Shown piece after piece: positions 15,987-40,240 of a DNA stretch of 64,000 nt (its first letter is position 1; every line of letters begins with the position of its first letter). A program made the translations under genes and the position numbers. The notes beneath the pieces were generated by a model. It searched no databases. It was not told the origin of the DNA and worked only from the letters and a program-made list of their open reading frames with translations. The DNA comes from Halorubrum rubrum (GTDB lineage: Archaea > Halobacteriota > Halobacteria > Halobacteriales > Haloferacaceae), in assembly GCF_024494685.1 (NCBI RefSeq), contig NZ_JANHDM010000007.1, positions 1 through 64,000 of the forward strand. The letters run 5' to 3'.

Positions 15987-16193
15987 ACAAAGAGTACATT
16001 CATATCAAATATAATACTATTGTGGGTCTGGATAGCACTCGGCAGCATCTGATTGGTCGTTCTGGCACGATAGAATCTTTATCTCTGACGATTGTCTTGT
16101 TGTGGCGAGGCAGGATTAACCATCGTCATCCGGGTTTGTCACACACGGTCATCACTCGCACCTCGACCGTCGTGGGAGTTGTAGTATTTACAG

Positions 16194-38620: not shown

Positions 38621-39679
38621 TCAGACCAGTCGCTCGGCGATCCGAGCCGCGCCCTCGGCCGCCGCGGTCGCGGGGTCGTCCGGGGCGACGACCTCGACGT
38701 CGCGGTCGAGTTCGGCCGAGAGCCGCTTCTCGAACTCCTCGACGAGTCCGGGGATACACGCCATGCCGCCGGTGACGGCGATCGGGCGGCCCAACGCGAG
38801 CTGGTAGGGTTTCATGTGGTCGTTCGCGAGTTCGGGGAGGAACTCGTTTGCCACGACGTCGACCGCGTCGTCGATGTAGCGGTCGACGGGGTCGCGGACG
38901 CCGCGATCGACGGTGAACTCGTGGCTCCCGCCGCCGGGCTGTTGGACCACGTCCGTGAACGGCTCGAAGTCGTACACGTCGGCGTGTCCTTCTTTGTACT
39001 CGCGGGCGGTCGTCCGATCGATGTGGACCCGACCCTGACTCTCCTCCTCGACGGCGGCGACGATCCAGCGGTCGACCTCGTTGCCCGTCACCGAGCCGGT
39101 CGAGAACGGCGAGAGCTGCTCGCCGCGGCGGTACGCACACGCCTCGAGCGTCGTCGAGCCCATGTTGACGGAGACGAACACCTCGTCTATCGCGTCGAGC
39201 CCGTCGCCGTAGGCGGGGATGGCCCCGCAGAGCGACTCGGGGAAGCTCCGGACCGCGGCCTCGCCGACGCTCGAGCCCTCGATGACCGCCTCGAGGTTCT
39301 CGACGCCCGCCTCGTTGTCGATGGTCGGCACCGCGTAGACGACCGCGCTGTTTTCGGGGACGTCGTGGGCGTCCACGACCGCCTCGAAGAACGCTTCAGC
39401 GTCGGCGACGCCGTCGTCGTTCTCGGGGAGTCCCGATCGGAGCATGAACCGCACCGAGTCGGGGTACTCGACGGCGGCGTCGTGGCCGAAAAGCGCCTTC
39501 TCCTCGCCCGTGATGGCGTCCTCGTAGGTCGCCAGACAGGTGAGCGTCGAGTGTCGCTCGCGGCCGTCGCGCTCGTCGGGGAGATCGAGCACCGTTCGAG
39601 TGCTTCCGAGTTTCACCCCGACGGCGGTCGGGGCGTTCTGGTCGTCGGCGTTCGTCGTGGTGGATTCTGCGTCGCTCAT
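38621..39679 (-). CDS. Salactin-type archaeal actin homologue
   Basis: A 352-residue member of the actin/MreB/Hsp70 superfamily resembling salactin, the haloarchaeal protein that forms dynamically unstable filaments. Phosphate-1 loop: VGVKLGSTRTVLDL; phosphate-2: VSVNMGSTTLEACAY; adenosine motif: IAVTGGMACIPGLVEEF. The 20-residue Ser/Thr/Asp-rich start is disordered. In Halobacterium the homologue affects chromosome partitioning when phosphate is low. Its ATG overlaps the stop of the upstream FlaD/E-like gene (ATGA), so both are made together. Confidence 0.85.
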   Translation of the reverse strand: MSDAESTTTNADDQNAPTAVGVKLGSTRTVLDLPDERDGRERHSTLTCLATYEDAITGEEKALFGHDAAVEYPDSVRFMLRSGLPENDDGVADAEAFFEAVVDAHDVPENSAVVYAVPTIDNEAGVENLEAVIEGSSVGEAAVRSFPESLCGAIPAYGDGLDAIDEVFVSVNMGSTTLEACAYRRGEQLSPFSTGSVTGNEVDRWIVAAVEEESQGRVHIDRTTAREYKEGHADVYDFEPFTDVVQQPGGGSHEFTVDRGVRDPVDRYIDDAVDVVANEFLPELANDHMKPYQLALGRPIAVTGGMACIPGLVEEFEKRLSAELDRDVEVVAPDDPATAAAEGAARIAERLV

Positions 39680-40152
39680 TGTTCACTCGCACACGAGACG
39701 ATCCGGACGACGGAGACGAGGCTGATCCGATGGTCGGCGGGGGAGAAGGGCCGGTCGCGTCGGGGCGCGTCGAAGCCGGCGAGCCGGCGTTCCAACGCGT
39801 CCGCGACCGCCGGCGCGATCCACCCGAGCTCGGCGTAGTACGACAGCGCGTCGCGGCTCCGCAGGTGGCCGCCGACGTCGACGAGGTAGCCGAGCCAGTC
39901 GGCGATCTCCCGCTCCGCTTCGGGCACGCTCGGTACGGATCGCAGGTAGGGACGCTCCCCGCCGTCGACCCGCCGCAGCCCGCGTTGCCGCCGGAGGACC
40001 TCCCGGAACGCGGCCGAGCGAGCCGCCTGTTCGGCGCGGTTCCGGTTCGGTCGACGAAGTCGCCGCTCCCGAGGCGCTTCGTTCACGCCGCCCCGCGTTC
40101 CCGCGAGCCGGCGCAGTTCCCGTACGTCGTATCTCCGTGGGTTCAGACTCAT
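39676..40152 (-). CDS. FlaD/E-like domain protein coupled to salactin
   Basis: A 158-residue protein. The first 70 residues are basic (ERRLRRPNRNRAEQAARSA). Residues about 85-135 (EREIADWLGYLVDVGGHLRS then YYAELGWIAPAVADALERRL) match the archaellum FlaD/FlaE C-terminal domain, where WLxYLV and YYxxIGWI are hallmarks. No archaellum genes are nearby. Its stop overlaps the salactin ATG, so it is probably a dedicated salactin partner, for instance an adaptor linking filaments to another structure. ATG at 40150-40152. Confidence 0.7.
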   Translation of the reverse strand: MSLNPRRYDVRELRRLAGTRGGVNEAPRERRLRRPNRNRAEQAARSAAFREVLRRQRGLRRVDGGERPYLRSVPSVPEAEREIADWLGYLVDVGGHLRSRDALSYYAELGWIAPAVADALERRLAGFDAPRRDRPFSPADHRISLVSVVRIVSCASEQ

Positions 40153-40240
40153 TGTCCGTCCGTCCGTCGTTCGCGTCCGTACCCGAACGCTTCCCACCGA
40201 CGTATATGAGCGTTCGTGCGCAGTTATCACCCCTGAGAAA

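Follow-up and report, generated by a model that had tools for sequence, protein, structure and literature searches.

In most salactin-bearing haloarchaea, the gene for the actin-like filament protein salactin lies directly after the gene for ArlD. Because ArlD is part of the swimming motor, the conserved gene pair suggests a joint function of this cytoskeletal filament and the cell end that bears the motor. In its full form our proposal is that the upstream gene is arlD, that in most haloarchaea it shares an operon with salactin, and that ArlD serves as a shared polar adaptor for salactin; we consider the chances of this whole being right to be evenly balanced. The gene pair and the identity of the partner as ArlD are much firmer than the adaptor function proposed for it.

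The salactin locus of Halorubrum

The window, the whole 64,000-nucleotide stretch analysed here, carries both genes on the minus strand. The salactin gene (38621–39679, minus strand) encodes an actin-like filament protein of 352 residues that scores 585 bits against PF25229 (cut-off 27.1) and 572 bits against the NCBIfam equivalog NF053533 (cut-off 400), with a full-length family match covering residues 17–352. The nearest named salactins, those of H. aquaticum and H. cibi (both Halorubrum), are 96% identical to it, and a plasmid search for salactin gave no match. Salactin of H. salinarum is reported to form dynamically unstable filaments from the poles (PMC10746226); by analogy, the same behavior would be expected of the window protein.

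The arlD-type gene (39676–40152, minus strand) encodes a stand-alone FlaD/E-domain protein of 158 residues. The protein matches PF04659 (Arch_fla_DE) over residues 66–151 with 57.2 bits (E 1.6e-15; cut-off 21 bits), and carries an N-terminal motif, described below. In the whole-genome search the domain, at 39700–39957 on the minus strand, scores 58.4 bits. The preliminary description had recognized a FlaD/E domain from the stretch WLGYLV...YYAELGWI, which indeed lies within this Pfam domain. An AlphaFold model of the protein is confident and helical for the domain (residues 66–152). Comparing the fold with the PDB returned nothing with E below 0.001, and a solved sequence relative of FlaD/E was likewise absent from the libraries searched. 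The window ArlD is basic, with a net charge of +11 that comes entirely from the N-terminal linker (the part encoded at 39954–40152); ArlD proteins from elsewhere mostly have net charges between −8 and −29, and the median of the window's genes is −9 per 100 residues. Read directly from the sequence, the TGA stop of arlD (39678–39676) and the ATG start of salactin (39679–39677) have ATGA in common (39676–39679, minus strand), the overlap that had been described beforehand.

Conservation of the gene pair

We surveyed 391 Halobacteria genomes, 186 of which have a salactin match above the cut-off. A pair was counted when a PF04659 gene lay at most 1 kb upstream of salactin on the same strand. Two genomes with salactin matches under the cut-off (G049 and G287), and second matches under the cut-off in six further genomes, were left out before counting, and the coordinate list does not include small salactin fragments in G182 (C1:143488) and G189 (C19:24901). 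Groups g26, g6, g29 and g32 are called Halobacterium, Haloferax, Haloarcula and Halococcus (or -type) here, and these genus names are our assignments.

The pair is present in 160 of the 186 salactin genomes, and 30 of the 33 genera have one or more genomes with it, so that the coupling first proposed for one locus extends well beyond this strain, and the idea that it is a peculiarity of a single strain was rejected. It is complete in g1, the Halorubrum of the window (42/42), in Haloarcula (24/24), in g9 (10/10) and in g13 (8/8). Genera without it include g26 (0/9), g53 (0/2) and g66 (0/2), the gene in g66 being 5 kb away. Among the loci of named organisms, 43 of 47 are paired; the remaining four are second salactin copies in Halocatena, Actinarchaeum and a relative of the latter, whose other copy is paired. 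A PF04659 protein is encoded in all 186 salactin genomes, compared with 119 of the 205 genomes that have no salactin.

The pair occurs in at least eight different gene contexts, and therefore the pair, rather than a long block, is what is kept. The junction itself varies. Of 102 distinct junctions, 34 have the ATGA overlap, and just two of these, L048 and L125, fall outside the Halorubrum-type set; elsewhere a gap of 3 to about 1000 nucleotides separates the genes; the overlap was therefore rejected as a conserved feature. No ArlD–salactin fusion occurs among the 102 junctions.

Is the neighbourhood a matter of chance, or of annotation? The salactin study reported poor synteny "even within the Halobacterium genus" and argued from adjacent DNA repair genes (PMC10746226), and none of the nine Halobacterium-type genomes has the pair. 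An accidental arrangement or an annotation artefact is nonetheless contradicted by the 160 of 186 genomes and 30 genera in which the genes are joined, and both proteins pass curated family cut-offs. We consider such an explanation extremely improbable.

In all nine genomes of the Halobacterium-type group, salactin and the PF04659 genes lie far apart or on separate contigs. The arlD gene of this group lies in the arl cluster in three loci (L037, L201 and L210), one of which, L201, is from a genome with no salactin match. The archaellin of the group is close to PDB 9eq7 (294 bits over its length), which we take to come from Halobacterium salinarum, and this supports the assignment. The che/CheF/HEAT gene order also resembles that described for the genus (PMC2666748). 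The strongest clue to salactin thus appears to have been hidden because the genus of study has no informative neighbours. The accessible text of a 2016 survey of archaellum genes mentions no actin (PMC4858521). In the literature searched, we found no account naming the arlD–salactin pair, in keeping with the earlier remark that such a partner was undescribed.

In the 20 salactin genomes of the phylum examined outside Halobacteria, salactin never has a DE gene beside it, although 14 of them have PF04659 elsewhere; a linkage predating the haloarchaea was accordingly rejected.

Identity of the partner as ArlD

The salactin-linked protein is best identified, most simply, as ArlD, the archaellum switch protein, and not as a reused look-alike. 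In a midpoint-rooted tree of 97 DE domains over 110 columns, the salactin-linked proteins group with the archaellum-cluster ArlD of Halobacterium-type genomes, as does a stand-alone protein of Halococcus type, and all ArlCE are separate. The split from ArlCE has support of 92/84, which is modest, the alignment being short and several long branches being flagged; L048, although salactin-linked, is placed on the ArlCE side. Both the window partner and the ArlD of arl clusters carry the N-terminal motif M-x-[IL]-[ND]-P-x-x-Y-D-x-x-E-L-R. It was considered as a mark of salactin-linked copies and rejected, being present in Halobacterium-type ArlD too; it also occurs, in a weaker form, in Halococcus-type genomes, which gave no salactin match in the survey. 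The 158-residue protein has no match to the FlaC coiled coil PF05377, one of which is found in the ArlCE of L129.

The genome of the window encodes two PF04659 proteins: the arlCE of its arl operon, which is on contig 11 and has no arlD, and the salactin-linked gene. The arlD-type gene is therefore not encoded in its own archaellum cluster, a position that is usual and not needed for orthology. Exactly two DE proteins are encoded in 128 of the 160 pair genomes, the second being ArlCE where examined, and 126 of these 128 have the archaellum ATPase ArlI (both counts tallied by hand from the survey tables). Because the partner is the sole ArlD-type protein in most archaellated pair genomes and groups with ArlD in the tree, we conclude that it is most simply ArlD itself. 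On this identity, the window partner would be predicted to bind ArlCE, CheF or ArlH and to be needed for swimming.

The partner might instead have left the archaellum, as a FlaD/E paralogue whose one task is to serve as an adaptor for salactin. In favour of this are the archaellum-less lineages that keep the pair, Halocatena and Actinarchaeum among them, and the presence of a third DE protein in most Haloferax and several g13 genomes. The same assumption, however, would leave 126 archaellated pair genomes without any ArlD, and the tree sets the salactin-linked protein with ArlD; moreover, flaD deletion cells of H. salinarum are reported to be hardly motile (PMC2666748). A dedicated paralogue is, in our judgement, improbable.

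Two further observations concern the DE family. The third FlaD/E-domain protein of the g6 and g13 genomes is divergent (L129:17010–17459, L208 and L209). The f4 genomes, whose name as Natrialbaceae-type is our assignment (L193–L199 and L207), have no listed salactin match, and those of their DE proteins that were examined fall on the ArlCE side of the tree.

Archaellum and chemotaxis surroundings

In g2, g6, g16, g19, g23 and Halogeometricum pallidum, the order cheY-cheC-cheD is followed by the partner and salactin, near arl genes. Some loci of this type have one gene between cheD and the partner; the families were checked for g6. In a g56 genome (G117), two salactin genes lie within the arl operon itself, in the order arlG, salactin, first arlH, salactin, second arlH. 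This stretch (L131, 6300–14500; also contig 8 of G267) contains a tandem duplication within the arl operon, with two salactin genes, extra FlaC–DE proteins and two arlH genes.

These arrangements can be compared with published work on H. volcanii, in which cheY, cheC and cheD are HVO_1207, HVO_1206 and HVO_1205 (PMC2841640). A unit of ArlD and HVO_1202, listed beside CheY/C/D, is reported to be raised upon deletion of csmR (PMC13286277), and all 25 genes of HVO_1201–1225 are reported to fall at least threefold in another mutant (PMC10716476). H. volcanii, among our controls, matches the salactin model, and from the gene order HVO_1202 is probably the salactin homologue.

A candidate motility-type promoter

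Upstream of arlD lies TCTCAGGGGTGATA (40225–40238, minus strand), a candidate motility-regulator site one mismatch from TATCA(N4)TGATA, the motif that CsmR is reported to bind (PMC13286277). Between this site and the arlD start, the alignment of Halorubrum upstream regions contains a conserved TATA-like element, TCATATA (40203–40209, minus strand). In Halorubrum the CsmR-type site is at −81 to −86, followed by the TATA-like element, and the position is conserved. Just before the arlD start is a 23-nucleotide leader, TACGGACGCGAACGACGGACGGA (40159–40181, minus strand), nearly invariant in Halorubrum-type loci and set between variable flanks.

With at most one mismatch allowed, the window contains two matches to the CsmR motif against 0.03 expected, one of them in the gap before arlD. 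The second is at 16003–16016. At the same stringency, 51 of the 86 distinct sequences upstream of archaellated pairs have the motif, although these 51 promoters are not independent because most are from Halorubrum; the background is 2.9% for 200-bp segments drawn at random from the same loci and 8.3% for the sequences before all 1126 called genes, which include the arl and che genes of those loci. Haloferax-type loci have exact matches at about −163. At up to one mismatch the motif is absent from all seven distinct promoters of archaellum-less pairs, from five Halobacterium-type arlD genes (g26 and g53) and from six Halococcus-type genes. Across the genome of the window there are 15 sites of a relaxed CsmR-type form (four rows are the pattern read backwards). 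One is 45 bp before the arlCE start, one before arlD–salactin, one before a chemoreceptor–rhodopsin gene pair and two before pilins; the others lie before genes that are unrelated or uncharacterised, including a chaperonin and a ferredoxin-like gene, or before no called gene. The Halorubrum pair, moved from the archaellum cluster, carries a candidate motility-type promoter motif.

The motif would also suit a regulatory explanation, in which arlD serves the archaellum alone and salactin is cotranscribed with it only so that both are made in the motile rod stage, the two proteins never touching. The rise of the ArlD/HVO_1202 unit in the csmR deletion (PMC13286277) fits this, and so does the salactin deletion without a motility defect (PMC10746226). 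Shared transcription alone does not sit well with a pair that stays joined in at least eight gene contexts and that is kept in ArlI-less genomes, where none of the seven distinct promoters has the motif. We regard co-regulation without contact as rather unlikely.

The pair without an archaellum

ArlI is encoded in 294 of the 391 genomes, and 176 of the 186 salactin genomes have it. Nine of the ten salactin genomes that lack ArlI keep the pair: two g13 species, four g69 genomes (Halocatena and Actinarchaeum among them), G351, G388, which is 81% complete, and G345, which is fragmented and retains a second DE match of ArlCE length. In the tenth, G379 (L146), salactin is in fragments and a single DE protein is left. 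Conversely, 118 genomes have ArlI and no salactin; the motor therefore does not need salactin. Taken together, these distributions indicate that the ArlD-type protein and salactin behave as a module separable from the motor. The preliminary description had spoken of a reuse of the adaptor fold. As a statement about the protein this does not hold, the partner being most simply ArlD, but a role of the pair beyond the motor is likely, given its retention without the archaellum ATPase.

Hypha-forming haloarchaea are reported to have lost the archaellum and motility and to have expanded one MreB-like family (Tang et al., PMC10067837). The g69 genomes have several salactin copies, which would fit that expanded family. 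Actinarchaeum, a relative and Halocatena have extra unpaired copies (L092–L097, L090 and L091); hyphae and spores are reported from these lineages (PMC10067837).

Discussion

The conserved pair, the orthology of the partner with ArlD, the membership in archaellum–chemotaxis clusters of several genera, the motility-type motif and the persistence without an archaellum are all computed here. ArlD-GFP is reported to form polar foci in H. volcanii (PMC11588486), and salactin filaments are reported to grow out of the poles (PMC10746226). These two observations are from different species, and their simplest joint reading is that ArlD ties salactin to the motile pole. One face of ArlD would join the archaellum switch (ArlCE, CheF and ArlH), and the other would hold or nucleate salactin filaments. 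The dynamically unstable filament would then grow from the pole that bears the motor and the chemosensory machinery, and salactin could position or tether the contents of that pole; alternatively, through the same anchor, it might help chromosome partitioning. Physical contact, polar anchoring and an effect on motility or DNA are the steps that we infer.

We offer the following only tentatively, and with some doubt: ArlD may anchor or nucleate salactin at the pole, and an actin system genetically tied to the archaellum switch and chemotaxis may organise the motile pole of haloarchaea. Lineages that lost swimming, which include hypha-forming Actinarchaeum and Halocatena relatives, would have retained it as an independent organiser of the pole or tip. 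Against a polar adaptor are the unchanged motility reported for the salactin deletion of H. salinarum (PMC10746226), the nine unpaired Halobacterium-type genomes, the 118 genomes with ArlI and no salactin, the lack of pairing in 20 of 20 genomes outside Halobacteria and the absence of fusions.

The neighbours of salactin also include ATPases. Haloarculaceae-type loci have a divergent ParA/MinD-type gene immediately before arlD–salactin, on the opposite strand; 25 loci matched, duplicates included (L034:4291–5196, L088, L089 and 22 others), one of which, L143, has arlD without salactin. Among the 20 loci outside the haloarchaea, 12 (Archaeoglobi-type) have salactin at the head of a small operon whose next genes encode a coiled-coil protein and an ATPase of the ParA/MinD type. 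Five of the 20 have a type IV filament platform gene nearby; the neighbour families were checked on L177 (8336–10713) and L187 (7953–12862). The ATPases are of different kinds, and both neighbourhoods, as gene arrangements, point to a putative place-keeping role.

Such neighbours could also belong to a chromosome partitioning module, in which an ArlD-type protein is the pole anchor of a DNA-moving salactin spindle and its archaellum role is secondary. The salactin deletion is reported to have a DNA-partitioning phenotype at low phosphate (PMC10746226), ParA/MinD-type genes adjoin the pair or salactin as just described, and the pair is retained in non-motile lineages. However, the pair is located among che and arl genes and preceded by a motility-type promoter motif, and ParA/MinD proteins are reported to place motility machinery too (PMC11588486). 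A module primarily for DNA seems to us quite improbable.

If ArlD is the anchor, the pair bears on what holds salactin at the pole, for which it offers a named candidate. It predicts a link between actin filaments and the archaellum pole, makes the tractable hosts Haloferax and Haloarcula usable for the salactin question, and calls into question chromosome partitioning as the main task of salactin.

Comparison with known systems

The window partner resembles ArlD of the archaellum switch complex ArlCDE in its PF04659 domain, stand-alone size, N-terminal motif and clade. It differs in that the Halorubrum and Haloarcula-type copies are encoded with salactin and not in the arl operon, and in that the salactin-linked type is also found in some archaellum-less lineages. 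The window salactin shares its NCBIfam equivalog and Pfam family with H. salinarum salactin, VNG0153C (Zheng et al. 2023, PMC10746226), which is reported to lie near DNA repair genes with poor synteny, whereas in the window, and in one or more genomes of 30 of the 33 genera, salactin comes after a gene for a FlaD/E protein. The closest published arrangement is the ArlD/HVO_1202 unit of H. volcanii (PMC13286277), with cheY-cheC-cheD, arlD and a further gene. The order is the same in g6 and Halogeometricum, where the further gene is salactin; HVO_1202 is probably the salactin homologue, judging by its place in that order.

Two other haloarchaeal systems are related in function or kind. MinD2 and MinD4 of H. 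volcanii are pole organisers and affect the polar placement of ArlD and chemosensory proteins, but they are ParA/MinD-type ATPases and not actin-like filaments, and the accessible part of that report describes no co-encoded FlaD/E adaptor (PMC11588486). Volactin (HVO_2015) of Haloferax volcanii is, like salactin, a dynamic haloarchaeal actin (PMC10869688), but it belongs to a separate family: the window salactin scores 22.5 bits against the Volactin model, under its cut-off of 35.
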